From: Flavimobilis soli
Lineage (GTDB): Bacteria; Actinomycetota; Actinomycetes; Actinomycetales; Cellulomonadaceae
Assembly (NCBI RefSeq): GCF_002564025.1
Contig: NZ_PDJH01000001.1
Coordinates: 1,364,001-1,428,000, forward strand
Length of the DNA stretch: 64,000 nt
Direction of reading: 5' to 3'
The position numbers and the translations under genes were made by a program. Shown piece by piece: positions 4,841-45,307 of this stretch. The notes below the pieces were generated by a model. The model was not told the DNA's origin, made no database searches, and saw nothing but the letters and a program-made list of their open reading frames with translations. Position 1 is the first letter of the stretch. Each line of letters starts with the position of its first letter.

Positions 4841-4972
4841 CGCTCCCCGGAGCCGCACCGCTGCGGTCCTCCCGTCCCGCCACGACGGCGTCCCCGCCCA
4901 CCACGCGGGCCCTCCCCGCCGAGGTCGGGGCCTCATCCTCGCGAAGTAGGGCCGTCCACGCGAAGTAGGGCC

Positions 4973-5253: not shown

Positions 5254-5254
5254 G

Positions 5255-6104: not shown

Positions 6105-6980
6105 GTGCCTCCGTCCCCCGCCCTGCTCCGCGAGCGCGTCTGCACGTGGTTCGCGGACGCGGCCCGTGACCTGCCGTGGCGTGCGCCGGACCGCACGCCT
6201 TGGGGCGTGCTCGTGAGCGAGGTGATGCTCCAGCAGACGCCCGTCGTGCGGGTCGAGCCGGTGTGGCGGGAGTGGATGGACCGGTGGCCGCGTCCGGCGG
6301 ACCTCGCGGCGGCGGCGACGGCGGACGTGCTGCGCGCATGGGGCCGGCTCGGCTACCCGAGGCGGGCGCTGCGGCTGCAGGACTGCGCGCGGGCGATCAC
6401 GGACCTGCACGACGGCGAGGTGCCGCAGGGCTTCGACGAGCTGCTCGCGCTGCCTGGCGTGGGCGCGTACACCGCGGGCGCGGTGACGGCGTTCGCGTTC
6501 GGGCGTCGCGCCGTCGTGCTCGACACGAACGTGCGGCGCGTGCTCGCGCGCGCCCTCGACGGGGACGCGCTGCCGCACCCGCACCAGACGGTCGGCGAGG
6601 TGCGTCGCGCGGAAGCGGTCGTCCCGGGGGACGACGCGGAGGCTGCGGGGTGGGCGGCGGCGTCGATGGAGCTCGGGGCGCTCGTGTGCACGGCTCGCTC
6701 GCCGCGGTGCGGCGAGTGCCCGGTCGCGGACCTGTGCGTGTGGCGTCTCGCGGGCTTCCCGGCGGACGAGCATGCTGCCCGACGTCGTACGCAGGCCTGG
6801 GCGGGGACGGACCGGCAGTGCCGGGGCCGGGTCATGGCGGCGCTGCGTGCCGCGGACGGGCCGGTGCCGCGGGAGGCGATCGGGTGGCCGGACGCAGCGC
6901 AGCTTGACCGGGCCCTCGCTGCTCTCGTCGAGGACCACCTCGCGGAGCAGACGGCCGAGGGTTACGTACTGCCCCGCTGA
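6105..6980 (+). CDS. mutY: A/G-specific adenine glycosylase MutY
   Basis: MutY removes adenine mispaired with 8-oxoguanine in base excision repair. The 291-residue protein has the helix-hairpin-helix Gly/Pro-Asp glycosylase fold: catalytic Glu39 in SEVMLQQT, the hairpin LPGVGAYTAGA (116-126) and catalytic Asp140 in VLDTNVRRV. The iron-sulfur cluster ligands follow as Cys195, Cys202, Cys205 and Cys211, spaced C-x6-C-x2-C-x5-C exactly as in the family. It lacks the long NUDIX-like C-terminal domain of E. coli MutY and ends in a short domain, as actinobacterial MutYs often do. The start is GTG 6105. Nearby radA and disA make this a genome-maintenance neighbourhood. Confidence 0.95.
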   Translation: MPPSPALLRERVCTWFADAARDLPWRAPDRTPWGVLVSEVMLQQTPVVRVEPVWREWMDRWPRPADLAAAATADVLRAWGRLGYPRRALRLQDCARAITDLHDGEVPQGFDELLALPGVGAYTAGAVTAFAFGRRAVVLDTNVRRVLARALDGDALPHPHQTVGEVRRAEAVVPGDDAEAAGWAAASMELGALVCTARSPRCGECPVADLCVWRLAGFPADEHAARRRTQAWAGTDRQCRGRVMAALRAADGPVPREAIGWPDAAQLDRALAALVEDHLAEQTAEGYVLPR

Positions 6981-7681: not shown

Positions 7682-8719
7682 TTACGCCCCGCTCACGGCG
7701 CTGCCGCGCAGCTGGGCGGCACGCTCGGCGGCCGCGCGCTCGGCGTCGTCGAGCTCGAAGAGGCGCAGGGCGGTGAGCTCGTCGATGACGAGGTGGGTGA
7801 CTGCTCCGGCGAGGAGGGCGGCGCGCAGCGGGACGACCTTGTTGTCGCCTGCGACAGCGCAGACGCGTCGGGGCACGGCACGCAGCTGGGCTGGTGTGGG
7901 GCCGGTCGCGCGCGCGTTGAGCTCGATGTCGGAGTAGGTGCCGTCGGCGCGGAGGAAGACGGTGCACACGTCGCCGACGACTCCTTCCGCCTCGAGGGTC
8001 TCGACGTCGTCGGGCTCGAGGTAGCCGGCGGAGTAGACGTGGCTCGGCAGCTCGCCCTGCAGGGCGCCGACGGAGAAGAGGGCGATGTCGGCGCGGCGCT
8101 GCACCTCGAGGACGCGCTGCACGCTTCGCTCGCGCCACATGGCGTCGCGCGTCTCGGCGTAGTCGAAGAAGGCGGGGACCGGGAAGTAGTGGACGTGCGC
8201 GCCGAAGGCGCGCCCGAAGCCGGAGATGAGGTCGCCCGCGTAGTCGACGCCCGAGGTGCGGGTGTTGGCGGCGCCGTTGAGCTGCACGACGGCGGAGCCG
8301 CGGGTGGGCTTGGTCGTCAGGTGCCCGGAGATCGCGTTGATGGTCGTGCCCCAGGCGATCGCGAGGACCATCTCGGAGTCGAACCACGACGTGATGAGGC
8401 GCGCGGTCGTGCGGGCGACCTGGTCGAGCCGGTCGACCTGGGCCCCCGAGTCGGGGACGGGGACGACGAACGCCTCGATGTCGTAGTCGTCGCGCAGCCG
8501 CTGGGTCAGGCCGGGGGCGCGGGAGTGCGTGGGGCGCAGCGTGATCTCGACGATGCCGCTGTCGCGGGCGTCTCGGATCATGCGGGAGACGGTCGAGCGG
8601 GACGTCCCGAGGTGCTTCGCGATCGCCTCCATCTTCATGTCCTGGAGGTAGTACATCGACGCCGCGGCGTAGAGGTCACGGTTGTGCCGCGCCGTGCGCT
8701 CGTCTGAACGAATTGCCAC
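7682..8719 (-). CDS. SorC/DeoR-type sugar-binding transcriptional regulator
   Basis: A 345-residue SorC-family regulator. The N-terminal helix-turn-helix is at about 25-55 (DMKMEAIAKHLGTSRSTVSRM), followed by a phosphosugar-binding domain that begins IEAFVVPVPDSG and contains AIAWGTTINAIS and CTVFLRADGT. Translation begins at GTG 8717-8719. It is divergent from glpD, and a perfect palindrome lies between the two genes. Family members bind phosphorylated sugars or polyols, so glycerol 3-phosphate or a related triose phosphate is the likely ligand here and glpD-glpF-glpK the likely target. That assignment rests on position, not on a ligand motif. Confidence 0.88.
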   Translation of the reverse strand: MAIRSDERTARHNRDLYAAASMYYLQDMKMEAIAKHLGTSRSTVSRMIRDARDSGIVEITLRPTHSRAPGLTQRLRDDYDIEAFVVPVPDSGAQVDRLDQVARTTARLITSWFDSEMVLAIAWGTTINAISGHLTTKPTRGSAVVQLNGAANTRTSGVDYAGDLISGFGRAFGAHVHYFPVPAFFDYAETRDAMWRERSVQRVLEVQRRADIALFSVGALQGELPSHVYSAGYLEPDDVETLEAEGVVGDVCTVFLRADGTYSDIELNARATGPTPAQLRAVPRRVCAVAGDNKVVPLRAALLAGAVTHLVIDELTALRLFELDDAERAAAERAAQLRGSAVSGA

Positions 8720-8778
8720 GTAGACACCTCCATCGAGGTCCCGAGGGGTCCTGGCACCCGGGATCTAGGTCCCAGCCT

Positions 8779-8792
8779 TGCACATATGTGCA
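8779..8792. promoter_or_regulatory. Candidate SorC-regulator operator (perfect 14-bp palindrome)
   Basis: TGCACATATGTGCA is a perfect palindrome in the 147-bp gap between the SorC-type regulator and glpD. It is AT-rich in an otherwise GC-rich region and sits 74 bp upstream of the glpD start. A weaker second dyad, GGGATCTAGGTCCC, lies just upstream at about 8760-8773. Both could serve the divergent promoters. Confidence 0.6.
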
Positions 8793-8866
8793 GTCCGGTT
8801 GCGCGGATGTTCTACCGATGTTTGGTTGAGACCGGAACAGCACCACTCTCCGGCGAAAGGCCAGAA

Positions 8867-10621
8867 ATGTCAGTCTCCGGCACGTCCACCCGTCTGACCC
8901 CCAGCACCCGCGAGGCCTCGCTCGAGGCGCTCCGTCAGAGCGCCACCACCCCGCTCGACGTCCTGGTCATCGGCGGCGGCGTGACCGGCGCCGGCATCGC
9001 CCTCGACGCCGTGACCCGCGGCCTGAGCACCGCCATCGTCGAGGCCCAGGACTGGGCCTCCGGCACGTCGAGCCGCTCGTCGAAGCTTGTGCACGGCGGC
9101 CTGCGCTACCTGCAGATGCTCGACTTCCACCTCGTGAAGGAGGCGCTCACCGAGCGCGACCTCCTCATCAACAAGCTGGCCCCGCACCTGGTCAAGCCCG
9201 TGTCGTTCCTCTACCCGCTCGAGCACAAGGTCTGGGAGCGCGCCTACGTCGGTGCCGGCGTCGCCCTCTACGACGGTCTCGCCACCCTCGCCCCGGGCAA
9301 GCGGGCCATGCCGTGGCACCGCCACCTGAGCCGCAAGGGCATGGAGCGTCTCTTCCCCGACCTGCGCCACGACGCCGCCGTCGGCGCGCTGCGGTACTGG
9401 GACGCGAGCGTCGACGACGCCCGCCTCGTCTCGACCCTCGTGCGCACCGCCGCGGGCTACGGCGCCCACGCCGCGAGCCGCACCCAGGTCGTCGAGCTCA
9501 CGAAGAACGCCCGTGGCCGCATCGACGGCGCCGTCCTCCAGGACCTCGAGACCGGCGAGAAGATCACCACGAAGGCGCGCCACGTCATCAACGCGACCGG
9601 CGTCTGGACCGAGGACACCGAGGCGCTCGCCGGAGGCTCCGGCGGCCTGCGCGTCCTCGCGTCGAAGGGCATCCACATCGTCGTCCCCCGGGACCGCATC
9701 CGCGGCAAGGTCGGCCTGATCCTCCAGACCGAGAAGTCCGTCCTCTTCGTGATCCCGTGGTCGCGCTACTGGGTCATCGGCACGACCGACACCCCGTGGG
9801 AGCAGGAGCTCACGCACCCGGTCGCGACCGCCGCTGACATCGACTACGTCCTCGACCACGCGAACGCCGTCCTCGCGGAGCCGCTGACCCGCGACGACAT
9901 CATCGGCACATGGGCGGGCCTGCGCCCGCTCCTGCAGCCGGGCACCAAGGAGGGCACGTCGTCGGCCAAGGTGTCGCGTGAGCACACCGTCGCCTCACCC
10001 GAGCCGGGCCTCACCGTCATCGCGGGCGGCAAGCTCACGACCTACCGGGTCATGGCCGAGGACGCTGTCGACTTCGCGCTCGGCGCGGAGGCGAGCCAGC
10101 TCCCGTCGGTGACGTCCAAGACGCCGCTGCTCGGCGCCGTCGGCCTCGAGGCCCAGCGCAACTGGGCGCGCACCCACGCATCCACGTACGGCTGGTCGAA
10201 CGCGATGCTGGACCATCTCTTCCACCGCTACGGCGCGCTCGTCGCGGACATCGTCGCGCTGTGCGAGGAAGACCCGAGCCTCGCCAAGCCGCTCGAGCAC
10301 GCACCCGCGTACCTCCGCGCCGAGATCTCCTACGCCGCGAGCCACGAGGGTGTCCTCCACCTCGAGGACGTGATGCTCCACCGCACGCGCCTCGTCTACG
10401 AGGAGCGCGACCGTGGCCTGGGTGCCGTCCCCGAGATCGTCGACATCATCGCCCCGATCCTGGGGTGGGACGACGAGCGCAAGGCCGCGGAGATCGCGTC
10501 CTACACCGCGCGCGCCGAGGCCGAGGAGGCTGCCTCCCACGACCTCGACGACGCGACCGCTGAGCAGACCCGCCTCAAGGCGGCTGACATCAGCCCGATG
10601 ACCACGCTCAGCTCTCGCTGA
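8867..10621 (+). CDS. glpD: Glycerol-3-phosphate dehydrogenase, aerobic, FAD-dependent
   Basis: GlpD oxidises glycerol 3-phosphate to dihydroxyacetone phosphate and passes electrons to the quinone pool at the membrane. From ATG 8867 the protein has 584 residues. It has the FAD-binding VLVIGGGVTGAGIALDAVTRG at about 33-53 (quoted in part), the family motif SSRSSKLVHGGLRYLQ, and IIGTWAGLRPLL and GGKLTTYR in the second half. An in-frame ATG at 8786 lies within the palindromic operator and would add 27 non-family residues. ATG 8867 has AAAGG just upstream and begins at the usual place. It heads the glpD-glpF-glpK cluster; a hairpin follows it, so expression of the later genes may be lower or separately driven. 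Confidence 0.96.
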   Translation: MSVSGTSTRLTPSTREASLEALRQSATTPLDVLVIGGGVTGAGIALDAVTRGLSTAIVEAQDWASGTSSRSSKLVHGGLRYLQMLDFHLVKEALTERDLLINKLAPHLVKPVSFLYPLEHKVWERAYVGAGVALYDGLATLAPGKRAMPWHRHLSRKGMERLFPDLRHDAAVGALRYWDASVDDARLVSTLVRTAAGYGAHAASRTQVVELTKNARGRIDGAVLQDLETGEKITTKARHVINATGVWTEDTEALAGGSGGLRVLASKGIHIVVPRDRIRGKVGLILQTEKSVLFVIPWSRYWVIGTTDTPWEQELTHPVATAADIDYVLDHANAVLAEPLTRDDIIGTWAGLRPLLQPGTKEGTSSAKVSREHTVASPEPGLTVIAGGKLTTYRVMAEDAVDFALGAEASQLPSVTSKTPLLGAVGLEAQRNWARTHASTYGWSNAMLDHLFHRYGALVADIVALCEEDPSLAKPLEHAPAYLRAEISYAASHEGVLHLEDVMLHRTRLVYEERDRGLGAVPEIVDIIAPILGWDDERKAAEIASYTARAEAEEAASHDLDDATAEQTRLKAADISPMTTLSSR

Positions 10622-10679
10622 GCGTCCAGGTCGGGGCCGGCGCCCGCCAGCCCCGACCGGCCGCCCTCGGGCGGTCCGG

Positions 10680-10702
10680 CCCGTCCGCGAGGGGCGGACG
10701 GG
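10680..10702 (+). terminator. GC-rich hairpin between glpD and glpF
   Basis: CCCGTCCGC and GCGGACGGG form a 9-bp stem with a 5-nt loop, followed by TTT. A second possible hairpin (GGTCGGGG ... CCCCGACC) lies upstream at about 10629-10658. Either could attenuate read-through from glpD or protect the 3' end. Confidence 0.5.
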
Positions 10703-10739
10703 TTTCCACGACAACGAAGTCAACGAAAGCGGGCACACC

Positions 10740-11471
10740 ATGACACTGACCGACATCTTCGTCTCCGAGGTGATCGGCACTGCGCTCCTGATCCTCCTCG
10801 GAGCCGGAGTCGTAGCCAACGTCGTCCTCCCCAAGAACAAGGGCTTCAACGCGGGATGGGTCGTCATCACCTTCGGATGGGGCCTCGCCGTCTACGCCGG
10901 CGTGTGGGCCGCATGGAAGTCTGGCGCACACCTCAACCCCGCCGTCACGTTCGGCATCATCGCGAACGGCCAGGACAACTACGTCGACGGCGTTCCCGTC
11001 AACCTCACGAGCACCCTCGTCTACCTCGCCGGTGAGATGATCGGCGCCTTCATCGGTGCGGTCCTCGCGTACCTCGCGTACAAGAAGCACTTCGACGACC
11101 CGGACGCCGACTCTGGCTCGAAGCTCGCGGTGTTCTCGACCGGCCCGGCGATCCGTTCCCACGGCTGGAACGTCGTCACGGAGGCCCTCGGCACGTTCGT
11201 GCTCGTGTTCGTCATCCTCCAGTTCGGCAACTCGCCGCACGAGCTCGGCCCGCTCGCCGTCGCGCTCCTCGTGGTCGGTATCGGCATGAGCCTCGGTGGT
11301 CCCACCGGCTACGCCATCAACCCTGCACGTGACCTCGCCCCGCGCATCGCTCACGCCATCCTCCCGATCAAGGGCAAGGGCTCGAGCGACTGGAACTACG
11401 CCTGGGTGCCGGTCGTCGGCCCGATCATCGGCGGCGTTCTCGCCGGCCTCCTGGCCACCGCCGTCGCCTGA
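10740..11471 (+). CDS. glpF: Glycerol uptake facilitator (aquaglyceroporin)
   Basis: A 243-residue MIP channel for passive glycerol entry. It has six predicted membrane helices and both NPA boxes, LNPAVTF (NPA at 66-68) and INPARDLAPR (NPA at 194-196). The Asp after the second NPA is the hallmark of glycerol-conducting members rather than pure water channels. The ATG start is 118 bp after glpD and preceded by GAAAGCGGG. It lies between glpD and glpK, the usual company for the facilitator, since GlpK traps entering glycerol as glycerol 3-phosphate. Confidence 0.96.
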   Translation: MTLTDIFVSEVIGTALLILLGAGVVANVVLPKNKGFNAGWVVITFGWGLAVYAGVWAAWKSGAHLNPAVTFGIIANGQDNYVDGVPVNLTSTLVYLAGEMIGAFIGAVLAYLAYKKHFDDPDADSGSKLAVFSTGPAIRSHGWNVVTEALGTFVLVFVILQFGNSPHELGPLAVALLVVGIGMSLGGPTGYAINPARDLAPRIAHAILPIKGKGSSDWNYAWVPVVGPIIGGVLAGLLATAVA

Positions 11472-11489
11472 CCCAGCCCTACCACGCCT

Positions 11490-11523
11490 GACGGGAGGCC
11501 GCCGTGAGCGGCGGCCTTCCGTC
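11490..11523 (+). terminator. Stem-loop between glpF and glpK
   Basis: GACGGGAGGCCGCCG and CGGCGGCCTTCCGTC flank a TGAG loop and form an almost perfect 15-bp stem, 44 bp before the glpK start. No T-tract follows. It may be a weak terminator or a 3' stabiliser of the glpF message. Confidence 0.5.
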
Positions 11524-11567
11524 GGCACACCTGAACTCCCGCACACCACGCGAAGGAAACCTGGACC

Positions 11568-13085
11568 ATGACGAAGAAGTACGTCCTTGCGATCGACCAG
11601 GGCACGACGAGCTCCCGGGCGATCCTCTTCACCCACGAGGGCACGATCCACTCGGTCGGCCAGCTCGAGCACGACCAGATCTTCCCGCAGGCCGGCTGGG
11701 TCGAGCACAACCCGGAGCAGATCTGGAACAACGTCCGCGAGGCCGTCGGCATCGCGCTGACGCGCGGCAACGCCACCCACGAGGACATCGCCGCCGTCGG
11801 CATCACGAACCAGCGCGAGACCGCGGTCGTGTGGGACAAGACGACCGGCAAGCCCGTCTACAACGCGATCGTCTGGCAGGACACCCGCACCCAGAAGATC
11901 GTCGACGAGCTGGGCGGTGACGACGGGCCCGAGAAGTACAAGGACATCGTCGGCCTCCCCCTCGCGACCTACTTCTCCGGCCCGAAGGTCAAGTGGATCC
12001 TCGACAACGTCGACGGCGCCCGCGAGGCCGCCGAGCGCGGCGACCTGCTGTTCGGCAACACCGACACCTGGGTCCTGTGGAACATGACGGGCGGCCCCGA
12101 GGGCGGCGTGCACGTCACCGACGTCACCAACGCGTCGCGCACGATGCTCATGAACATCGACTCGCTCACCTGGAACGAGGACATCGCGAACGACATGGGC
12201 ATCCCCATGTCGATGCTCCCCGAGATCCGTTCGTCGTCCGAGGTATACGGCCACGGGCGCTCGCGCGGCATGGTCCCCGGCGTGCCGATCGCTGGCATCC
12301 TCGGCGACCAGCAGGCGGCGACGTTCGGCCAGGCGTGCTTCGAGGTCGGTACGGCCAAGAACACGTACGGCACGGGCAACTTCATGCTCCTCAACACCGG
12401 CACGGAGCCGGTGCGCTCCGAGAACGGCCTGCTGACGACGGTCTGCTACAAGATCGGCGACCAGCCAGCGGTGTACGCGCTCGAGGGTTCGATCGCGGTG
12501 ACGGGCTCGCTCGTGCAGTGGCTGCGGGACAACCTCGGCATGTTCGACGACGCCCCGGACATCGAGCACCTCGCTCGCAAGGTGGACGACAACGGTGGTG
12601 CGTACTTCGTGCCGGCGTTCTCGGGCCTGTTCGCGCCGCACTGGCGCTCGGACGCGCGCGGTGCGCTCGTCGGCCTGACGCGGTACGTCAACAAGAACCA
12701 CATCGCGCGTGCGGCTCTGGAGGCCACGGCCTTCCAGACGCGCGAGGTCCTCGACGCGATGAACGCCGACTCGGGTGTCCCGCTCAAGGAGCTCAAGGTC
12801 GACGGCGGCATGGTGTCCAACGAGCTGCTCATGCAGTTCCAGGCGGACATCCTCGACGTCGAGGTCGTGCGTCCGAAGGTCGCGGAGACGACGGCGCTCG
12901 GTGCGGCCTATGCGGCCGGCATCGCCGTCGGGTTCTGGGAGGGCGAGCAGGACGTCCGCGACAACTGGGCCGAGGGCGGCCGCTGGAAGCCGACGATCGA
13001 GCCGGAGGAGCGCGACCGTCAGTACCGCCTCTGGAAGAAGGCCGTCACGAAGACCCTCGACTGGGTCGACGACGACGTGAAGTAG
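11568..13085 (+). CDS. glpK: Glycerol kinase
   Basis: GlpK phosphorylates glycerol to glycerol 3-phosphate. The 505-residue protein is full length and collinear with the FGGY family. The N-terminal phosphate block is [34 protein letters not shown] is present, as are the first FGGY signature region [12 protein letters not shown] and the second block [19 protein letters not shown]. The start is ATG 11568, preceded by GAAGGAAA. The gene completes the glycerol catabolic cluster and ends at a strong inverted repeat. Confidence 0.97.
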
Positions 13086-13142: not shown

Positions 13143-13274
13143 GTCTGTCCGGGCGTTTTGGCCGATCGCTCGGATGCACGCGTCACGTGGGGATCCGGGC
13201 GATCCGTCGGCTGGGGCCAGCCGGCCCGGGGCGGAGCCGTCCGGGTCGGGTGGAGCCGGCCGGGGCGGGCGGCT

Positions 13275-14459
13275 TCAGAGGGTGGGCTGGCACTCCCCCG
13301 AGCCAAGGATGGCAAGACCCGCACGGTCCCCCGGGCCCCAGGTCGTCTGCGACGAGTCGTGGGGGTGCATCAGCGCTGTCGTGTCCTCGACGTGGTCGAG
13401 CCCCAGGAGGTGACCGACCTCGTGCCGCAGCACCTGGACGTAGGCAGGCTCGCCCGCGTATCGGGGGTAGGCCAGCATCGTCGTGTCGATCGCGACGGCG
13501 CCCGTGACGTACCCGGCTTTGCCGCCCACCTCGAGCGCGGACGCCCCGCCCAGTCCCGCGGTGCGGCCTGCCAGCTCCGGGATCTCGCTCTCGTCGGCGA
13601 ACCCGACGATCACGGGCGCCCACTGCCCGCCGTAGCGGTCGGGCTGGTACGCCTCGCGCTCGAAGCTCACGCGCTCGGTGGTCGGGCCGTCGAGCACGAA
13701 CGTGAGCCCCGACAGCTCGCTCGCCTCGGCGAGCACGTGGCTCACCCAGTCGACGAAGTCGTCAGGAGCCTGGGCGGTGTCGACGACGACGTGGATCGGG
13801 CGGCAGGGCGACCAGGTCACCGGCGTGTCGTGGTGCGTGTCGAGGAAGGCGTAGGAGCCCTCGAGGCCCGCCGTGCTGACGGCGGGAAGCAGGCGCTCCG
13901 GCTGCTCCTCGAACCCGGGGGGCGGGCCCTGCTGAGACGTCACGCGCGGCATCGCCGCGTGGTCCGAGAGCGCGACGGCGAGCGATGGGTCGACCTTTCC
14001 CGTCCCCCAGCGGTCGTAGCTGACGATGAGCGCGACGACGACGATCACGATCGTGATGAAGCCGGTGAGCGGGTTGCTGTCCTTCCGTGCACGCACGGGC
14101 ACCGGCGCCCGCCAGGCCTCCGGCGGGGCCTGCCGCGCGCGCACCCGACCCGCCTTACGGTCGTACCGCGTGAACGCCCGGGCCAGGTCCTCGTCCTGCC
14201 GCAGCTGCCGCTCCATCGCGGCCCAGGTCGCGTCGACGTCCTGAGGAGTCCACGACGTCGCGCCAGGCGTGCTGCTCGCGGGGACGCCCGGGTTCGCGGT
14301 CGGCTCGGGCTCCGGTGACCACGACAGCGTCTCGTCGCCCCCGGCGGCGTCGTCGCCCCCGGCGGCGTCGTCGCGCCGCGGGTCCCCGGGGGGAGTCGCG
14401 GGGTCGCCGGGCGCAGTCACCCCCTCATCGTTGCCTATCGGGCGAGACACGTCACCCAC
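13275..14459 (-). CDS. Membrane-anchored matrixin-like zinc metalloprotease
   Basis: A 394-residue protein. The N-terminal 130 residues are cytoplasmic and low complexity, with a tandem DDAAGG repeat near residue 32. One membrane helix (FITIVIVVVALIVSY) lies at about 136-150, and an extracytoplasmic domain of about 240 residues follows. That domain ends with HEVGHLLGLDH, the HExxHxxGxxH zinc-binding site of the matrixin/astacin-like clan, and a later ALMHP Met-turn. CRPIHVVVDT at the start of the domain fits the first strand. The likely role is proteolysis at the cell surface; no substrate is suggested by the neighbours, which are glpK (convergent) and a peptidase gene (divergent). Confidence 0.85.
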   Translation of the reverse strand: MGDVSRPIGNDEGVTAPGDPATPPGDPRRDDAAGGDDAAGGDETLSWSPEPEPTANPGVPASSTPGATSWTPQDVDATWAAMERQLRQDEDLARAFTRYDRKAGRVRARQAPPEAWRAPVPVRARKDSNPLTGFITIVIVVVALIVSYDRWGTGKVDPSLAVALSDHAAMPRVTSQQGPPPGFEEQPERLLPAVSTAGLEGSYAFLDTHHDTPVTWSPCRPIHVVVDTAQAPDDFVDWVSHVLAEASELSGLTFVLDGPTTERVSFEREAYQPDRYGGQWAPVIVGFADESEIPELAGRTAGLGGASALEVGGKAGYVTGAVAIDTTMLAYPRYAGEPAYVQVLRHEVGHLLGLDHVEDTTALMHPHDSSQTTWGPGDRAGLAILGSGECQPTL

Positions 14460-14590
14460 GTCGTTCGTCCCGCCGCTTCCACATCCGCTCCTCTGCCCGG
14501 TGTCCCCGCGACAGCGGCGAGTGGCGAGTGGCGAGTGGCGCCAGCCGTGACCATCGCATCTCGTCAGGGTGCGGGTGGGAGCATGGGCTC

Positions 14591-15901
14591 ATGAGCCTTC
14601 ACCGCCTGCCCGGTATCCGTGCCGTCGACCACGTCGTGACGGTCCCGCTCGTCCACGGCGACGAGTCCGACACGCGCACGATCACGGTGCTCGCGCGCGA
14701 GCTCGTCTCGGCGACCCGCGCGGGCGACGACCTGCCTCTCCTCCTCTTCTTGCAGGGCGGACCCGGCGGCAGGTCTCCGCGCCCGCTCGGGAGCGACGGC
14801 TGGTGGGCTGCGGCGCTCGACCGGTTCCGTGTCGTGCTGCTCGACCAGCGCGGGACGGGGCGTTCGACACCAGTCACCGCGGCAACCATGGCGGCGCTCG
14901 CAGACGGCGCGGGCTCGGACCCGGCTGCCCAGGCCGCGGCGCAGGCGGAGTACCTCGCGCACTTCCGCGCGGACGCGATCGTCGCCGACGCCGAGGCCGT
15001 GCGTCGGCAGGTCTACGGCGGGCGCCGGTGGACGACGCTCGGCCAGTCGTACGGCGGCTTCCTCACGCTCACCTACCTGTCCCGGCACCCCGAGGCGCTC
15101 GACGCGTGCCTCGTGACGGGTGGCCTCGCGAGCATCCACCCGGACGCGACGGCCCTCTACACGAACACGTGGGCGCGGACGCTGGTGAAGAACGAGGCGA
15201 TGCGCCGCCGCCACGCGGGCGACGCGGAGATCCTCGCGCGCGTCGCCGACGTGCTCGACGCAGGCGAGACGCGCCTGCCGAACGGCGACGTCGTCTCCGT
15301 GCGCCGCCTGCAGTCGCTCGGCATGGACCTCGGCATGAAGGCCGGTGCGGACCGCATCCACTGGCTGCTCGACGACGCGTTCCTGCCCGACGGCGCGCCC
15401 GGTTCGGACGAGCGCCTCTCCGACACCTTCCTCGCCGGGCTCGAAGCCGCGACGGGCTTCCGCACGAACCCGCTCTACGCGGTGCTGCACGAGTCCATCT
15501 ACGCGAGCGGCGACGCCGTCACGCCGTGGGCGGCCTCCGCGACGATGCCGCCCGAGTTCTCACCCGACGCACGGCCGCTCCAGCTCACGGGCGAGATGAT
15601 CCTGCCCTGGATGTTCGAGGAGATCTCCGAGCTGCGGCCGTTCCGTGCGGCGACCGAGGCGCTCCACGCGCGCTCGTCGTGGCCCGAGCTGTACGACCGC
15701 GAGCGCCTCGCCTCGAACGACGTGCCTGTCGTCGCGGCGGTCTACCACGACGACATGTTCGTCCCGGCGGACCTGTCGCTCGCGACGGCGACCGAGGTCG
15801 GCAACGTGCGCACGTGGATCACGAACGAGCACGAGCACGACGGTCTGCGCGTGGGCAACGCGCTGCCGCACCTGCTCGGCATGCTCGACGAGGGGCTGTA
15901 G
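14591..15901 (+). CDS. pip: Proline iminopeptidase-like alpha/beta hydrolase (S33)
   Basis: A 436-residue serine hydrolase of the prolyl aminopeptidase family, which releases N-terminal proline from peptides. Seen: the oxyanion segment FLQGGPGGRSP at about 53-63, LLDQRGTGRSTP, and the nucleophile elbow GQSYGGF with Ser153. A long cap domain is followed by the C-terminal PVVAAVYHDDMFV and HEHDGLRVGNALPHL, which supply the acid and His. The ATG at 14591 follows GGTGCGGGTGGGAG. Its last 133 bp occur again at 17502-17634 in diverged form (see the copy entry), which shows that DNA was inserted immediately downstream. Confidence 0.9.
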   Translation: MSLHRLPGIRAVDHVVTVPLVHGDESDTRTITVLARELVSATRAGDDLPLLLFLQGGPGGRSPRPLGSDGWWAAALDRFRVVLLDQRGTGRSTPVTAATMAALADGAGSDPAAQAAAQAEYLAHFRADAIVADAEAVRRQVYGGRRWTTLGQSYGGFLTLTYLSRHPEALDACLVTGGLASIHPDATALYTNTWARTLVKNEAMRRRHAGDAEILARVADVLDAGETRLPNGDVVSVRRLQSLGMDLGMKAGADRIHWLLDDAFLPDGAPGSDERLSDTFLAGLEAATGFRTNPLYAVLHESIYASGDAVTPWAASATMPPEFSPDARPLQLTGEMILPWMFEEISELRPFRAATEALHARSSWPELYDRERLASNDVPVVAAVYHDDMFVPADLSLATATEVGNVRTWITNEHEHDGLRVGNALPHLLGMLDEGL

Positions 15902-15907
15902 CGCCGC

Positions 15908-15965
15908 GCCGTCAGGCCGGGGCGTGCCGCTCGAGGAAGCGGTACACCTCGCCGTCGTCGACGCC
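15908..15965 (-). pseudogene. Second copy of the 3' end of the ramB-like gene
   Basis: These 58 bp match 18423-18480, the 3' end of the RamB-like gene, at 57 of 58 positions and in the same orientation. They encode the final [17 protein letters not shown] and stop. Similarity stops abruptly at 15965, and the upstream frame then meets TGA. The fragment sits 6 bp after the pip stop, where the intact ramB-like gene would lie if nothing had been inserted. The 234 bp from 15966 to 16199 hold no other feature I can support beyond a possible promoter for the next gene. Confidence 0.85.
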
Positions 15966-16199
15966 AGAGCCTCAGGGGGTACCTGGACGGCTCCCGGGAT
16001 CGCCGGCCGCGCCATCGTGGAGCATCGGCGGGGTTGCACGCTCTCGAGTCGCCATTCACGCCGCAGGCACGTTGCCGAAGACACTTCTCCAAGGATCCGA
16101 GGACAGAGGGTAGAAGTTCCTCAAGTCCGACGCTAGGTTGATTCCGTGCGCTCCGCAGGGGGAGCGAGCCGACCCTACGAGGGGCGACTTGAGAGAGAG

Positions 16200-17186
16200 A
16201 TGACAACCTCTACCCGCACGACAATCACCTTCGCCACAGCTGCGGCGATTCTCATAAGTTCCACTGGCATCGCACAGGCCCACGACCCAAACGCCGCCGC
16301 CAATGAAGTCGCCCAGAGCATCGCTACTGTAGCGCCCGAGGTTGGCACATTGATCGATCCGACAGAATTGGGCGATAAGTTCCGCGCGTCCAGCACTCAC
16401 ACCCGCATCACAATCCCCACTGAGGGCGACGGCCAGATCGAGGTCGCATCTGCAGACCCATCAGTTCCTGAGATTGCCGTTGAGCTCCCAGATCTCGTAC
16501 GATCAAGTTCCGGCAGCCAGGCTGACGACGGAACTGTGGTTCTTGAAAGTGACGACAACGCCTCGATCGCCGTGCAGGGGATCGCTGACGGATCGTTCCG
16601 ACTTCTTTCAGTGCTGGAGGGGCGAAGCGCAGAAGAACGGTACACATACCGTTTCGTGGGGGCCGATCTCCAATCGCAAGAGGACGGCTCTGTGCTGGTT
16701 CTCGGACATGGTGCGACGATTGGAGCAATCGAGGCGCCTTGGGCGCGCGACGCTGACGGACGAGAGGTTCCGACTCGGTACGAAGTGAGCGGTGACAATC
16801 TGGTCCAGGTCATAGATCACAGGTCCGGCGATTTCACCTACCCGATCACAGCAGACCCTTACGCATCGATCGGAATTGGCGTCTACATTCATTTCACTCG
16901 TGCAGAGACCAAGACCCTTGCCAACTCGGTCGGCGGAGCATCTGGCATTGGCGCGTTCTGCACGGCATGGGCCATCAAGCTGGCGAAGACTCCCGCGAGT
17001 GCAGCTGCGGGTGCGGTCCTCTCAGGGGCATGCCTTGTTGGCGGGCTTCGATTGGTATACCACGCCGGCAAGGCGGAGAACTCTAGCCCCAAGAAGTGCC
17101 TCTATCTGCGATACATCGGCGTCGGCACGACGGTCGTGCCCCAGTACCTCCACGTCGGCGAGTACCGGGACTCACGATGCAAATGA
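16200..17186 (+). CDS. Secreted protein, possible bacteriocin-type precursor
   Basis: A 328-residue exported protein of unknown function with base composition clearly poorer in GC than its neighbours. Residues 1-27 are a signal peptide ending AQA. The middle (28-220) is an acidic, strand-rich region ending in DFTYPITADP (211-220), a block I associate with a family of actinobacterial exported proteins. The last 108 residues are different: FTRAETK, then glycine- and alanine-rich amphipathic segments (GGASGIGAFC, SAAAGAVLSGACLVGG), then AENSSPKKCLYLRY, with four cysteines in total. A long leader followed by a small Cys-containing, Gly-zipper tail suggests a membrane-active peptide released by cleavage; this is inference. 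ATG 16200 follows GAGAGAGAG. It overlaps the next gene by ATGA. Confidence 0.75.
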   Translation: MTTSTRTTITFATAAAILISSTGIAQAHDPNAAANEVAQSIATVAPEVGTLIDPTELGDKFRASSTHTRITIPTEGDGQIEVASADPSVPEIAVELPDLVRSSSGSQADDGTVVLESDDNASIAVQGIADGSFRLLSVLEGRSAEERYTYRFVGADLQSQEDGSVLVLGHGATIGAIEAPWARDADGREVPTRYEVSGDNLVQVIDHRSGDFTYPITADPYASIGIGVYIHFTRAETKTLANSVGGASGIGAFCTAWAIKLAKTPASAAAGAVLSGACLVGGLRLVYHAGKAENSSPKKCLYLRYIGVGTTVVPQYLHVGEYRDSRCK

Positions 17187-17386
17187 GCGCCAAGACTCTG
17201 ACGATCTGCTGGTGGGCGGCCATGGTGACATGCGGCGCGATGGTTGTTGCCACCTTCCTCACCGTGGGATCCCCCGCGAACGGGTACTTCACGGCGGGCG
17301 CTCTCATATCGATGCTCATATCGGTCTTCTTTAGTGGAAGGCCGCGGGGGCAGCGAGGTCCCACTCGGAACAAGGGGTCGGACTGA
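17183..17386 (+). CDS. Small two-helix membrane protein, possible immunity partner
   Basis: A 67-residue protein with two membrane helices (about 5-26, LTICWWAAMVTCGAMVVATFL, quoted to its last residue by position only beyond 20, and about 32-50, YFTAGALISMLISVFF) and a basic C-terminal tail (GRPRGQRGPTRNKG). Its ATG overlaps the stop of the secreted-protein gene in an ATGA arrangement, so the two are translationally coupled. A second in-frame ATG at 17177 would add two residues. Small membrane proteins coded directly after a secreted toxin precursor are often immunity proteins; that role is inferred from position and topology only. It shares the low GC of the upstream gene. Confidence 0.65.
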   Translation: MSAKTLTICWWAAMVTCGAMVVATFLTVGSPANGYFTAGALISMLISVFFSGRPRGQRGPTRNKGSD

Positions 17387-17416
17387 CAGCAGCAGAGTCC
17401 TCACCACTACATGCCC

Positions 17417-17459
17417 CACTCGGGCGATTCACCATTGCTGGCGCTGGATCGCCCGGGTG
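17417..17459 (+). terminator. Terminator-like hairpin after the secreted/small-membrane gene pair
   Basis: CACTCGGGCGAT (17417-17428) pairs with ATCGCCCGGGTG (17448-17459) around a 19-nt loop, with one T-G pair. It lies 31 bp after the stop of the small membrane protein and closes the inserted two-gene unit. Confidence 0.6.
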
Positions 17460-17486
17460 TGAGCATGCCCTCGTGAGTGGGCCGCG

Positions 17487-17633
17487 GCGACGATGCCGCC
17501 AGACCTGTCGCTCGCGACAGCCGTCGAGGTCGGCAACGTGCGCACGTGGATCACCAACGAGCACGAGCACGACGGCCTGCGCGTGGGCGATGCGCTCCAG
17601 CACCTGCTCGGCATGCTCGACGAAGGGCTCTAG
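17487..17633 (+). pseudogene. Partial second copy of the pip 3' end
   Basis: Positions 17502-17634 match 15770-15902, the end of the pip gene, with 12 differences in 133 bp by my count. The copy still encodes DLSLATAVEVGNVRTWITNE through the stop. Just upstream, GCGACGATGCCGCC (17487-17500) matches pip about 217 bp earlier than expected (near 15540), so the copy also carries an internal deletion. No start codon or complete domain remains. Its divergence argues against a very recent duplication and for DNA imported from a related pip locus. Confidence 0.85.
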
Positions 17634-18319
17634 CTCGGCACGTGCGTCCCGAGCTCCTCAGCCGGGCGCGACGCCCGGCCCCAGAGGCGCACCGCCAGCC
17701 CGATGACGATGATCGCGAACCCCAGCGCGAGATGCCCCGTCGAGAGGTTGGCGACGGGTGACGACGCCCGATCGAGGTCGGCCATGACGGCGTCCAGCGC
17801 AGAGCCGGCGTCCGTGCCGAGCACCCGGGCCGCGACGTCGGGCAGGACGCTGCTCGTGATCAGCGCAGCCGCGACGGTCGCTGCGACCTGCCACGCACCG
17901 ACGATGATGAGCGTGCGCGCCGCGACCCGGCGGACGCAACGTCCGCGGGCGATGAGAACGAGCGCGGTCGATGCCGCAACGAGCAGCGCGGCAGGCCACG
18001 CGCGCTCGAGCACATCCGCGGTTGCGTGGAGCCGCGACTCCGTGTCGGTGAGTGCCACGTACGACATGCTCACGGTCTCGACGCCGGCGCCGATCGACTC
18101 GAGCCAGCCCCGGACCGGGAACGTCAGCGAGGCGTCGCCGGACGCATGGTCGGCCAGGCTGGTGAGGATCTGGAACGTGAGGAGGGCGAGCGCAGCCGCC
18201 GCGGTGACGAAGGCGACGCCCATCAGTGCCGCAGGGCGCGCGGGCGATCCGGTCCCGCGGCGTGACGCCGCGCTCTCGTCGATGTCCACGTCTGTGATGC
18301 CGCTTGCCTGATGCCTCAT
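17630..18319 (-). CDS. Four-helix membrane protein of unknown function
   Basis: A 229-residue integral membrane protein with four predicted helices, at about 33-55 (ALMGVAFVTAAAALALLTF), 105-122 (AALLVAASTALVLIA), 133-155 and 197-216 (GHLALGFAIIVIGLAVRLWG), with an extracytoplasmic loop of about 50 residues after the first. The arrangement resembles small DUF2975-like proteins, but I cannot confirm the family. The ATG is at 18317-18319. Its stop shares the CTAG with the end of the pip fragment, so it belongs to the same block of DNA that separates pip from the ramB-like gene. Its GC content is high, unlike the secreted-protein pair. Confidence 0.7.
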   Translation of the reverse strand: MRHQASGITDVDIDESAASRRGTGSPARPAALMGVAFVTAAAALALLTFQILTSLADHASGDASLTFPVRGWLESIGAGVETVSMSYVALTDTESRLHATADVLERAWPAALLVAASTALVLIARGRCVRRVAARTLIIVGAWQVAATVAAALITSSVLPDVAARVLGTDAGSALDAVMADLDRASSPVANLSTGHLALGFAIIVIGLAVRLWGRASRPAEELGTHVPS

Positions 18320-18426
18320 CCGTACCCCCTGGGAACGGGGTGCGTCCGCGCTCGTCGCGGTGCCCCCGTGACACGTCACGCTAGCGGGGCGCCGCTCGCG
18401 AAGACAAGGAAGGTTGTGCGGAGCCG

Positions 18427-19854
18427 TCAGGCCGGGGCGTGCCGCTCGAGGAAGCGATACACCTCGCCGTCGTCGACGCCCGGGAACGTGCCCCGGGGCA
18501 GGGCAGCGAGGACGTGGCTGTGCATCTTCGCGCTCGGCCACGCGGCGTCGCCCCAGCGCTGTGCGAGCCGCTCGGGCGGGCGCTGGCAGCACGCCGCGTC
18601 CGGGCAGGTGGAGGTCATGCGGCGCGTCGTCTCGCGGCCGCGGAACCACTTCACGTCGCTGAACGGCACGCCGACGCTGATCGAGAACTCGCCGCTCTCG
18701 GCGGTGCCGGTCTGCGTCGAGCACCAGTAGGTGCCGTTGGGCTTGTCCGTGTACTGGTAGTACTCGCTCGCCCTGTCGCGGGACGCGAACGCCTGCCGTG
18801 CCGCCCACCTGCGGCAGACCGTCTGACCCTCGATCGCGCCCGTGACGTCGGCCGGGAAGCGCACGCCGTCGTTCTCGTAGCCGCGCATGAGCGTCCCGTC
18901 GCCGTCGACGCGGCAGTAGTGCAGGTGGATGCCGAGGTGCGCGGTCGCGAGGTTGGTGAACCGCTGCGCCGCGGCGTCGTGCGCGATGCCGAACGCGTCG
19001 CGGAAGTCCGCGACGGCGAGGTCCTTCTCCTTCTTGCGCACGGTGAGCCACTCGACGGCGGTCGAGCGCGGGGCGAGGCACGCGGCGGCGAAGTAGTTGA
19101 TCTCGAGCCGCTGCCTCAGGAAGTCCGCGTACGACGCGGGACGCTCGTGGCCGAGGACGCGGTGCGCGATCGCCTGCAGCGCGAGGGACCGCAGGCCGTG
19201 ACCACCCGGGATCGAGGCGGGCGGCAGGTAGATCCGCCCGTTCGCGAGGTCGGTGACGGTGCGGGTCGACGACGGCAGGTCGTCCGTGTGCAGGATCTGG
19301 AAGCCGAGCTGCTCGGCGAGGACCGCGACGACGCGGTGCGTGAGCGGGCCTGACGTGTACCCGGCCTTGCGGACGAGCGGCTCGGCGAGCTCCTCGATCT
19401 CCGGGAGGTAGTTGTCGACCTCGCGCATCTCGAGGCGCAGCGCGGTGCTCGCGCGGCGCGCTTCCTCGGGCGTCGCGACGGCCTCGGCGTCGCGACGGGC
19501 GAGCTCGCGGTGCAGGCCGACCAGCGTCTCGAGGACCGGCAGCGGGAGCTTCTGGCTCGACTTCACCTCGGGGAGGCCGAGCCGGCCGAACGTCGTCGAC
19601 CGCTGGGCGCGGTCGAGCTCGATCTCGAGCGCGGCACGGTGCGACGGCGGCTCGGTCGACAAGAGCGCCGGCACGTCCACGCCGAGGGCGGCGGCGAGGG
19701 TACCGAGCGCGCTGATGCGCGGCTCGCGCTTTCCGTTCTCGATGAGGGAGAGCTGCGACGGCGCGAGGCCGGTCGCGGCGGAGAGGTCGTCGAGCGTGAG
19801 ACCGGCCTCGGTCCGGAAGTGCCTGATGCGGCGGCCGAGCGTGATGAGGTCCAT
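18427..19854 (-). CDS. ramB: RamB/ScfR-family transcriptional regulator
   Basis: A 475-residue regulator of the short-chain fatty-acid (ScfR/RamB) class. Residues 1-65 form an XRE-type helix-turn-helix ([20 protein letters not shown], then [17 protein letters not shown]). The middle holds an IrrE-like DUF955 domain ([20 protein letters not shown]), and the C-terminal third is Cys-rich ([29 protein letters not shown]), as in DUF2083 domains. In Corynebacterium RamB controls acetate and glyoxylate metabolism, and its ancestor class senses acyl-CoA. Here it is divergent from pckG, which fits control of C2/C3 carbon flow. The start is ATG 19852-19854; a longer frame upstream lacks family residues. 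Confidence 0.88.
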
Positions 19855-19870
19855 TCGTTGACGATAACGA

Positions 19871-19886
19871 AAGATCCGCCGATCTT
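19871..19886. promoter_or_regulatory. Inverted repeat between ramB-like gene and pckG
   Basis: AAGATC-CGCC-GATCTT is a perfect 6-4-6 dyad 17 bp upstream of the regulator start and 93 bp upstream of pckG. It is a candidate operator for the RamB-like protein (autoregulation and/or pckG control). It does not resemble the corynebacterial RamB box, so the pairing is tentative. Confidence 0.45.
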
Positions 19887-19979
19887 CACAGGCTCGCGCC
19901 CATGAATCGCGTTCGGAAGGCGGCGAAGGTGGAAGCAGGACGGGCTGCCGACGCCCGCCGGACACGACAGGAGCCACCG

Positions 19980-21965
19980 ATGAGCGTCATCGACCGTCCC
20001 CGCCTCGACCTGCCGCACGCGCCGGGCACGCTGCCCTCCCCGCGCGACGCGCTCGGCCGCCCGCTCACCGCGGGCGAGTGGGTCGACGCCGTCGCCGCGT
20101 TCCTCGAGCCTGACCAGGTCGTGTGGTGCGACGGCTCCGCCGAGGAGCGCACCGCGCTCCTCGAGCACCTCGTCGAGGCGGGCACGCTCCTCCCCCTCGC
20201 CCCTGACAAGCGCCCCGGCAGCTACCTCGCCCGCTCCGACCCGTCCGACGTCGCACGCGTCGAGTCGCGCACCTTCATCTGCTCCGAGCGCGAGGAGGAC
20301 GCCGGTCCCACGAACAACTGGTGCGCACCCGACGAGATGCGCCGTGAGCTGCACACCGTCGCCGCAGGCGCGATGAGGGGCCGCACGATGTTCGTCGTGC
20401 CGTTCTCGATGGGACCGGTCGGCGGACCCATCTCCCAGCTCGGCATCCAGCTCACGGACTCGCCCTACGTCGTCGTGTCGATGGGCATCATGACGCGCGT
20501 CGGCGCGCAGGTCACCGCCCTCATCGACGCAGGTGCGCCGTTCGTCCCCGCCGTCCACACCGTCGGCACGCCGCTGCGTCCGCTCGTCGACGAGCCGGGC
20601 CTCGCGGACCTCTTCCCCGTCCAGCGGGACAGCTCCCGCCCACGCCGCACGACGGCGTCGGGCATCCCCGCGCCGCACCCGGACGACGTGCCGTGGCCGT
20701 GCAACGACACGAAGTACATCGTGCACCTGCCCGAGACGCGCGAGATCTGGTCGTACGGCTCCGGCTACGGCGGCAACGCCCTGCTCGGCAAGAAGTGCTT
20801 CGCGCTGCGCATCGCGTCCGTCATGGCGCGCGACGACGGCTGGCTCGCCGAGCACATGCTGCTCATCCGGGCGACGTCGCCCGAGGGCCGCGCCTACCAC
20901 CTCGCCGCCGCGTTCCCGTCGGCGTGCGGCAAGACGAACCTCGCGATGCTCCAGCCGACGATCCCCGGCTGGAAGGTCGAGACGGTCGGTGACGACATCG
21001 CCTGGCTGCGCCCCGGACCCGACGGGACGCTGCGCGCGATCAACCCCGAGGCGGGCTTCTTCGGTGTCGCGCCCGGCACCGGCTGGTCGACCAACCCGAC
21101 CGCGATGCGCACGATCGCTCGGGACACGATCTTCACGAACGTCGCCCTGACCGACGACGGCGACGTGTGGTGGGAGGGCATGACCGACGAGCCGCCCGCG
21201 CACCTGACGGACTGGCGCGGCGAGGACTGGACCCCCGGCTGCGGGCGCCCGGCCGCGCACCCGAACGCGCGGTTCACGGTCGCGGCCGCGCAGTGCCCGT
21301 CGATGGCGGACACCTGGGAGGACCCGGCCGGCGTCCCGGTCGACGCGATCGTCTTCGGCGGGCGCCGCGCGACCAACGTGCCGCTCGTCGCCGAGGCGTA
21401 CTCGTGGGAGCACGGCGTCTTCCTCGGCGCGACCATCTCCTCCGAACAGACTGCCGCCGCCGAGGGCACGGTCGGTGAGCTGCGCCGCGACCCGTTCGCG
21501 ATGCTGCCGTTCTGCGGCTACGACATGGCCGGGCACTGGGCGCACTGGCTGCGCGTCGGCGCGAGCCTCGACCCGTCGAAGCGGCCGCTCGTCTTCCAGG
21601 TCAACTGGTTCCGCAAGAGCGCGGACGGGCGCTTCCTGTGGCCGGGATTCGGGGAGAACTCGCGTGTGATCGAGTGGGTCGCGCGGCGCACCGACTCCCG
21701 CCGCAGCCCCGACGCCCCGGGCACCGTGCGCGGCACCGTCGGGCTCCTGCCGCGGCTCGACGACCTGAACCTCGACGGCCTGGACGTCTCCGAGCAGGAC
21801 CTCACGGAGCTGTTCTCGGTCGACCCGAACGCCGGCCTCGTCGAGGCCGCCTCGACCGAGGAGCTGTTCGACCGCTTCGACGGCCGCGTCCCTGCCGAGC
21901 TGCGCGGCGAGCTCGAGTCCTTGCGCGAGAGGTTCGTCGCCGACATCCGCGGGGACGTGGACTGA
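19980..21965 (+). CDS. pckG: Phosphoenolpyruvate carboxykinase (GTP)
   Basis: PckG interconverts oxaloacetate and phosphoenolpyruvate with GTP/GDP, the entry step of gluconeogenesis from acetate or amino acids. From ATG 19980 (AGGAG 7 bp upstream) the protein has 661 residues, slightly longer than most GTP-type enzymes. Motifs include [29 protein letters not shown] (the R- and lid-region block), the kinase loop [10 protein letters not shown] at 311-320, GDDIAWL, and [11 protein letters not shown]. The extra length is at the C-terminus, where about 40 residues ([17 protein letters not shown] onward) follow the core. It is divergent from the RamB-like regulator. Confidence 0.97.
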
Positions 21966-27293: not shown

Positions 27294-28154
27294 GTGCGCG
27301 CCCTCATCACGAACGACGACGGGATCGACTCCCCGGGCCTGACCGTGCTCGCGGAGCGCGCGGCCGCCGAGGGGTACGAGGTCGTCGTCGCCGCGCCGCG
27401 CCGCGAGTCGTCAGGCGCGAGCGCGGCCCTCATGGGCACGGAGGACGACGGCCGCCTCATCGTCGAGCGCCGCTCCCCTCCGGGACTGTCCGACGACGTC
27501 CCCTCCTTCGGCGTCCGCGCCACCCCCGCGCTCATCACGCTCGTCGCCGCCCACGGCGGCTTCGGCCCGCCACCCGACCTCGTGCTGTCCGGCATCAACC
27601 GCGGCGCCAACACGGGGCACGCGACGCTGCACTCCGGCACGGTCGGCGCTGCCCTGTCCGCGTCGACGCACGGGATGCTCGCGATGGCGGTGTCGCTCAA
27701 CTCGTCCGACCCGACGCACTGGGGCACGGCGGGCTACGTCGTCGAGCACGCGCTGCGCTGGCTCCTCGAGAACCCCGACCCGACGCGGGTCCTCAACGTC
27801 AACGTGCCCGACCGCCCGGTCGACCAGGTGCTCGGCATCCGCCAGGCGCCGCTCGCGAGCTTCGGCATGGTGCACGCCCGCATCAAGGAGGCTGCCCACG
27901 GCCACCTCACGCTCACCTACACGGGCACCGACATGTCGAAGGAGCCGCAGAGCGACGCGGGTCTCGTCGCGCGCGGCTGGGCGACGCTCTCGCTGTTGCG
28001 GGCCCCGGTCGCGGACGACGACGTCGAGCTGTTCCGCATCGAGCACGAAGGTGCGCGGGTGCGCCGGCCGGGCCCCCGCGGCGAGCGCGTCGACACGATC
28101 GACGCGGGAGTCATGACCGGCCAGGACCTGCCCGTCGACCGCGGCGAGGGCTGA
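27294..28154 (+). CDS. surE: 5'/3'-nucleotidase SurE
   Basis: SurE removes phosphate from nucleoside 5'- and 3'-monophosphates. The 286-residue protein opens with RALITNDDGIDSPGL, whose Asp pair binds the metal, and continues with APRRESSGASAAL and LSGINRGANTGHATLHSGTV, the active-site Ser/Asn blocks of the family. The C-terminus is longer than in E. coli SurE. GTG 27294 is chosen because GAGGAGG lies 5 bp upstream and the family starts here. It lies downstream of the PfkB gene with a 66-bp gap. The 114 bp after it, toward convergent trpS, show no clear feature. Confidence 0.92.
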   Translation: MRALITNDDGIDSPGLTVLAERAAAEGYEVVVAAPRRESSGASAALMGTEDDGRLIVERRSPPGLSDDVPSFGVRATPALITLVAAHGGFGPPPDLVLSGINRGANTGHATLHSGTVGAALSASTHGMLAMAVSLNSSDPTHWGTAGYVVEHALRWLLENPDPTRVLNVNVPDRPVDQVLGIRQAPLASFGMVHARIKEAAHGHLTLTYTGTDMSKEPQSDAGLVARGWATLSLLRAPVADDDVELFRIEHEGARVRRPGPRGERVDTIDAGVMTGQDLPVDRGEG

Positions 28155-28268
28155 CCGCGACCGGCCAGGAAGGTCCTGCGTAGGACCGCGACCACGCCAC
28201 GACAGCCGAGACGACCACCAGGGCCTCGTCCGGGCCCCGGCGGTCGACAGGTCGAGCGGTCGCGCAGG

Positions 28269-45288: not shown

Positions 45289-45307
45289 ACGGATGACGCC
45301 GATGTAG

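Follow-up and report, generated by a model that had tools for sequence, protein, structure and literature searches.

A bacteriocin-like gene pair between duplicated gene ends in Flavimobilis soli: a candidate for entry by recombination

Introduction

In the actinobacterium Flavimobilis soli, the interval between a hydrolase gene (pip) and a regulator gene (ramB) carries an insert with a secreted-protein gene (X1), a small membrane-protein gene (X2), and a further apparent membrane-protein gene (Y), bracketed by second copies of the ends of both flanking genes. We have analyzed this locus within a window of 64,000 nucleotides (positions 1,364,001–1,428,000 of contig NZ_PDJH01000001.1, assembly GCF_002564025.1), which is part of a 2.887-Mb single-contig genome. 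On an even balance of probability, X1–X2 is a horizontally acquired pair, resembling a bacteriocin gene and its immunity gene, that entered the pip–ramB interval together with flanks from a related donor, namely a second pip, Y, and a ramB end. An empty site in the nearest relative, two pairs of repeats, a low third-position GC content (GC3) in X1–X2, a Y homologue at the corresponding place in a sister genome, and a family-wide association of the X1 and X2 types of gene carry this account, which would further involve a particular order of donor DNA, a mode of joining, a deletion within the second pip, and an antibacterial function.

The empty site and the two pairs of repeats

Six genomes make up the genus set, and Sanguibacter hominis is the nearest relative compared. 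We take genome G001 to correspond to S. hominis ATCC BAA-789 (locus L003) and G003 to Flavimobilis rhizosphaerae (L004). Window positions 14572–15965 align unbroken to S. hominis 7982–9375, and positions 18423–21000 to 9318–11895, at 94% identity each, and the two blocks overlap in S. hominis by exactly 58 bp. There pip and ramB adjoin, and both this 58-bp stretch and the pip end are single-copy. This arrangement is the empty site. A sequence-only reading of the locus had proposed that pip and ramB were formerly direct convergent neighbors, and had named the lack of any strain with the two genes adjacent as the outcome that would speak against it; S. hominis is such a strain, and the exact 58-bp overlap supports the proposal.

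In F. soli the same 58 bp occur twice, directly after pip at 15908–15965 (R′) and as the 3′ end of the intact ramB at 18423–18480 (R), both on the reverse strand. R′ lies directly 3′ of pip just as in S. hominis, which places the left junction of the insert at 15965/15966. The two copies agree at 57 of 58 positions (98.3%; E 2.3e-21 in a self-comparison of the window). The second pair consists of the native pip 3′ end at 15764–15902 (P) and a remnant at 17496–17634 (P′), both on the forward strand, which are 89.9% identical over 139 nt (E 5.8e-48). The earlier description of both recurrences was thus accurate, the pip-end copy before the next gene having the extent given here. The E-values rule out a chance origin of either pair, and the two are among seven direct-repeat pairs of at least 40 nt that lie less than 8 kb apart in the window at E ≤ 1e-3. 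Close short direct repeats of 80–85% identity are also seen in the self-comparison at 4908–5252 and 45023–45396.

The left flanking gene, pip (14591–15901, forward strand), encodes an alpha/beta hydrolase of proline iminopeptidase-like character (Pfam Abhydrolase_1, E 2.6e-18; the NCBIfam prolyl aminopeptidase match is far under cut-off), 95% identical in protein to its S. hominis counterpart. The right flanking gene, ramB (18427–19854, reverse strand), encodes a RamB-like regulator with an XRE helix-turn-helix, its NCBIfam RamB match of 45.5 bits lying far below the cut-off of 700.

Composition and content of the insert

X1 (16200–17186) encodes a secreted protein, the candidate bacteriocin precursor, and X2 (17177–17386), which overlaps its end, a small membrane protein of 69 residues, the candidate immunity protein; both are on the forward strand. 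Besides this pair, only the pip remnant and Y (17630–18319, reverse strand) are seen in the insert. The GC content of 16000–17199 is 0.604; among 628 overlapping 1.2-kb windows across the 64 kb, just one is as low (minimum 0.603). GC3 is 0.64 in X1, 0.77 in X2, and 0.89 in Y, against 0.92–0.97 in pip, ramB, pckG, and a metalloprotease-like gene. By GC3, X1–X2 look foreign. The AT-richer insert recognized from the sequence, and the composition and codon usage check then proposed over 15.9–18.4 kb, therefore stand for X1–X2 (about 16.0–17.4 kb), to which the AT-rich part is limited, and fail for Y, which is host-like. The 58 other genomes searched yielded no match to the insert DNA beyond the pip-end copy and short stretches.

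No integrase, transposase, replication, or relaxase family in Pfam, NCBIfam, or PHROGs matches X1, X2, or Y, which agrees with the earlier remark that transposases and integrases are missing and leaves a site-specific integrative element unsupported.

Y occurs in 2 of 150 genomes, that of F. soli and G004, that is, in 1 of the 149 others searched; S. hominis has no match. The pip–ramB gap of G004 holds two apparent membrane genes, and the one adjoining pip is the Y homologue, at 32–34% identity. Y is plausibly older content of the interval, on the thin evidence of this one distant homologue, and probably came with the donor's flanking DNA, given its host-like GC and its homologue in the G004 interval. 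The same two observations leave unsupported a view of Y as part of the AT-rich cargo.

Elsewhere the interval also differs. The F. rhizosphaerae gap of about 750 bp contains an apparent small membrane gene, and among 78 further loci ramB lies 0.1–2.7 kb past pip in four, two from Isoptericola (L005, L006) and two from Promicromonospora (L013, L014), with differing content between. The comparison of relatives that had been proposed as a check thus finds the genes adjacent in S. hominis and other content in F. rhizosphaerae, G004, Isoptericola, and Promicromonospora, which makes the interval a variable one. G002 and G005 lack a close pip, so that their interval is uninformative, and L154–L156 (from G004, G005, and G002) were set aside. 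As a separate observation, two sister genomes have short inverted-repeat-like sequences (GAGATAGCGC / GAGATAGGGG types) in the gap from pip to the membrane gene (L004, about 9317–9390; L095, about 6870–6950).

Divergence of the copies and a possible route of entry

The copies of the pip end differ in their likeness to S. hominis. P is 97.8% identical to S. hominis, and P′ is about 90% identical to both. The 12 changes private to P′ fall at codon positions 1, 2, and 3 in the ratio 2/2/8 (binomial p 0.019), as expected of a gene that diverged while functional elsewhere. Just left of P′, a 29-nt stretch at 17449–17477 (forward strand) matches the start region of S. hominis pip at 25 of 29 positions. 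None of about 5,000 random window segments, drawn away from the two sites, matched that region as well; against the whole of pip the match is not significant (585 of 2,000 draws), and the case rests on the expected position. The second pip was probably a whole gene that was later deleted internally. An imported cassette carrying a related pip end, as first envisaged, is in keeping with the foreign-looking GC3 of X1–X2 and with insert DNA absent from 58 genomes, and is revised in that the pip copy is probably what remains of a whole gene.

The two 58-bp ramB ends are 98.3% and 96.6% identical to S. hominis. Y is part of the right-hand copy only, and the Y-less pip–ramB junction that the left-hand copy shares with S. 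hominis counts in favor of import. Because of the divergence of P from P′, the third-position bias, and the confinement of Y to the right, a donor origin of the right-hand copy is favored.

That P′ is more diverged than the window is from S. hominis would also suit an insert older than the split of the two lineages, lost again from S. hominis by recombination between R′ and R, which would leave exactly the arrangement seen there. Such a history is very improbable, since it still needs a Y-less pip–ramB junction before the insertion and, applied to the loci in G003 and G094 described below, would require losses in their sisters too.

For entry with donor flanks, the incoming DNA would have had the order X1–X2–pip′–Y–ramB′. 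Its right end would have recombined by homology with the resident ramB, and its left end would have been attached, with no homology involved, within the final 58 bp of that gene, so that the resident pip and the ramB tip were left in front of the import; a left join 58 bp inside ramB together with homology on the right is what would produce the observed order. The redundant second pip would later have lost its middle. Homology-driven entry, which the sequence-only reading had suggested, is an inference. Genes of the ComEC type occur in all six genus genomes, though they are widespread (10 of 14 controls) and say little. A literature search for such an entry mechanism turned up no paper.

A circle carrying X1–X2–pip′–Y–ramB end could have reached the same result in one step, through a single (Campbell-type) crossover in the 58-bp ramB end that gives the 58-bp repeat, a native-looking ramB, and the order pip–R′–X1–X2–pip′–Y–R. 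We hold this to be very unlikely: a circle is required, X1, X2, and Y match none of the replication, relaxase, and integrase families, and 58 bp is short for homologous recombination.

Similar scars at other X1 loci

A search for X1-type genes listed 57 matches, of which 42 were examined (40 fetched loci, the window, and G003), the other 15 being weak, partial, broken, or at contig ends. When a bracketing repeat is defined as a direct repeat of at least 40 nt and at least 78% identity within 1.5 kb on each side of X1, five of the 42 loci are bracketed, namely the window, G003, G094, G093, and G092. The repeat statistic covers the 37 loci whose flanks reach 1.5 kb or more on either side. With the window left out, 4 of 36 are bracketed, against 49 of 13,000 random 1-kb intervals from 65 other loci and 0 of 3,440 from the same regions (binomial p about 1e-5 at the higher control rate). 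Two further loci, L194 and L201, have repeats around X1 more than 1.5 kb away and are excluded from the count.

In G003, X1–X2 lie between two acs (acetate-CoA ligase) ends, each with a downstream hairpin-like sequence, ahead of a putA-like gene. The 144-nt copies are 94.4% alike and 93.1–93.8% identical to G004, where the stretch is single and whole; G001 has 86 bp of it, likewise single. In G094, the pair lies between 219-nt gene-end copies that are 89.0% alike and 87.7–90.9% identical to G096 and G073, in both of which the stretch is single. In G003 and G094, the distance between the copies thus roughly equals that to the sister genome. Inside the G094 insert (L182, 4420–4731 in X1 orientation), a part copy of the left-hand gene, presumably nucleotidyltransferase-like, adjoins the repeated gene end, and both carry the motif VPVKDARxGKTRLSAVL.

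The brackets in G093 (67 nt) and G092 (84 nt) are weaker cases with no clean empty site. In G082, two copies of the G092 repeat accompany the same flanking gene, with different cargo, and the repeat recurs in G049 and G102, there perhaps at a different site; it may be dispersed, which makes a weak case. In G082 (L275, contig C298), two 145-bp copies lie about 2.6 kb apart with what by eye is an Rhs-like fragment between them, and genes for a small secreted protein and an ABC transporter stand beside the repeats, close to the gene bordering X1 in G092. These genes recall a lactococcin 972 locus, an identity we do not claim: neither peptide nor permease matches NCBIfam, and the ATPase has a sub-cut-off match to TIGR03608.

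The event at pip–ramB is thus not unique, X1-type genes in some other genomes also lying between duplicated gene ends. Tentatively, and with more doubt than conviction, we propose that X1-type pairs form a widespread actinobacterial family of two-gene cassettes for a small bacteriocin and its immunity protein, which have no recombinase of their own, pass between chromosomes by recombining within housekeeping gene ends, leave xenologous duplicated ends as a scar, and may pile up at one site.

Insertion with a long target duplication would account for such loci differently, a staggered break or tandem duplication having copied the local gene end as X1–X2 were joined into the break. G003 and G094 have exactly this geometry, one stretch of the empty site standing at both ends of the insert; in the window the 58-bp copies are nearly identical; and Ku is encoded in all six genus genomes. 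We nevertheless judge this origin decidedly unlikely. Copies made in this way should start identical, yet they differ by 5.6% in G003, 11.0% in G094, and 10.1% at the pip end of the window, about as much as sister genomes do or more, and in the window Y stands in the right-hand copy only and the changes in P′ are biased toward third positions.

The X1–X2 family

X1-type proteins are patchily distributed, occurring in 41 of the 221 genomes of the family. They combine an N-part that ends in YPxxADP with a variable C-part, and median similarity over 35 pairs is 0.23 in the former and 0.06 in the latter. In X1 itself, the common N-part extends to residue 220 (YPITADP) and the cationic, variable C-part spans residues 221–328 (108 residues, four Cys). 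Across the 35 loci that have the small membrane neighbor (the six without it are not included in these figures), the C-parts measure 72–118 residues, carry net charges of +2 to +13, and contain two, four, or six Cys.

A small membrane-protein gene lies directly downstream of X1 in 35 of 41 loci, L207 having too little DNA to be counted. Such a frame was defined as one of 45–220 residues with a membrane segment predicted by our own hydropathy rule and a start in the span from 28 nt ahead of the X1 stop to 86 nt past it. Comparable frames occur at 217 of 4,815 random positions and behind 17 of 428 other long open frames (4–5%). Similarity among the small membrane proteins tracks that among the C-parts after correction for the N-part, with a partial r of 0.62 over 35 pairs and of 0.43 and 0.29 in less redundant sets of 27 and 24; in each of the three, 0 of 2,000 permutations did as well.

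X1 finds nothing above cut-offs in Pfam, NCBIfam, PADLOC, or PHROGs and no relative in solved structures at E ≤ 1. Its structural model has a mean pLDDT of 80, with some regions of the C-part scoring much lower, and consists of a beta-rich N-part and a helical C-part ending in two strands. No paper on the X1 gene family was among the matches listed by a literature search, which is not proof that none exists.

The variable cationic Cys-containing C-parts, the co-varying small membrane neighbors, and the patchy distribution make the pair resemble a toxin with its immunity protein, and X1–X2 are most likely a bacteriocin precursor and a membrane immunity protein. They could instead be something like a cell-wall or sensor protein that is secreted and works with a membrane partner, their function being read from sequence and the lack of any family or structure match lending this reading some weight. 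We regard this as unlikely, though less so than the alternative origins discussed above, given that those same three properties resemble toxin/immunity pairs.

Evidence against the proposed acquisition

Several findings weigh against the entry of a bacteriocin-like pair with donor flanks. No donor with X1–X2–pip′–Y–ramB was found, and the 58 other genomes compared hold no close X1 DNA. No donor tract is visible in ramB, whose 3′ end beside R is 97–98% like S. hominis over 300 bp, so that the crossover would have to lie within the 58-bp repeat or close to it, unless the event was of another kind. The two ramB-end copies are at least as similar to each other as to S. hominis, and their agreement at 57 of 58 positions does not favor a donor-derived right copy. 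With Ku throughout the genus set, end joining with local duplication would be possible. No bracketing repeat is present at 37 of the 42 X1 loci, or at 32 of the 37 whose flanks are long enough, so that such a scar either need not arise or has been lost. The control frames used for the downstream genes include spurious frames of GC-rich DNA, surely some of them non-genes. Finally, a Foldseek comparison of the X1 model, weak in its C-part, with the PDB gave no match at E ≤ 0.001.

Other features of the window and genome

Left of pip, the metalloprotease-like gene (13264–14440) is 74.5% identical to S. hominis, compared with 91–94% in neighboring stretches, through fast evolution or replacement. 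Near 28127–28269, S. hominis is longer by about 4.3 kb (L153, 9010 to 13282), another insertion or deletion difference. The start of the F. soli contig (G000:C1, about 1–23000) seemingly recurs at its end (2863000–2886687), perhaps as an untrimmed circular overlap, to judge from equal-score Ku matches at 4958–5497 and 2868377–2868916 and from hydrolase matches at 3826 and 2867245 with equal spacing.

Known systems and implications

The closest published pattern is the insertion with long target duplication reported for Helicobacter pylori restriction-modification genes (Nobusato et al., 2000, Gene 259:99; as cited in PMC1643837 and PMC3154945). There as here, long direct repeats enclose a gene set, the target is single-copy in a relative, and transposases are missing. 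Single-copy targets are found for the window (S. hominis), G003 (G004, and 86 bp in G001), and G094 (G096, G073), and the stretch stands on both sides over 58 nt in the window (R, or about 202 nt of P and R if Y is skipped), 144 nt in G003, and 219 nt in G094. Our loci differ from those accounts in their bacteriocin-like cargo and actinobacterial host, in long copies diverged about as far as sister genomes or more, and in the presence of Y in the right-hand copy of the window. As to a local origin of both copies, these are 89–98% alike; Y and the third-position bias point to a donor, and the near-identical 58-bp copies do not.

Homology-facilitated illegitimate recombination has been proposed for successive additions of type VI secretion system (T6SS) effector–immunity modules in Vibrio cholerae (PMC5361080). 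There the anchor is the region preceding the module, and what stays behind is a set of former immunity genes and the 3′ end of an effector. The likeness lies in a toxin–immunity pair beside resident genes, one-sided homology, and displaced resident pieces left behind, and the difference in that the pieces here are ends of housekeeping genes and that no T6SS cluster is involved. For a donor-derived homologous arm, P′ and Y look donor-derived, yet ramB, as noted, lacks a visible donor tract.

Polymorphic toxin systems pair a conserved N-part and a variable C-part with a neighboring cognate immunity gene (PMC3482391), and X1 shares both the division into parts and a neighbor that co-varies with the C-part. 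It departs from the toxins described there, whose C-terminal domains are mainly enzymatic, in its short, cationic, Cys-containing C-parts and in the presence of whole gene pairs in the inserts.

Bacteriocins of the closticin 574 type are made as long precursors from which a C-terminal peptide matures. X1 may likewise be a long precursor with a short C-terminal active part, which for X1 is a guess; the likeness is one of description and implies no sequence relation.

The window locus combines a target-duplication-like insertion with a polymorphic-toxin-like pair, in a family unnamed by Pfam and NCBIfam. It suggests that candidate bacteriocins and their matched immunity genes, present in 41 of the 221 genomes searched, make up a family that has so far escaped annotation. 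If the proposed acquisition is true, diverged second copies of neighboring gene ends around a toxin–immunity pair would provide a searchable signature of a way for small antibacterial gene pairs to reach chromosomes with no help from mobile-element enzymes.

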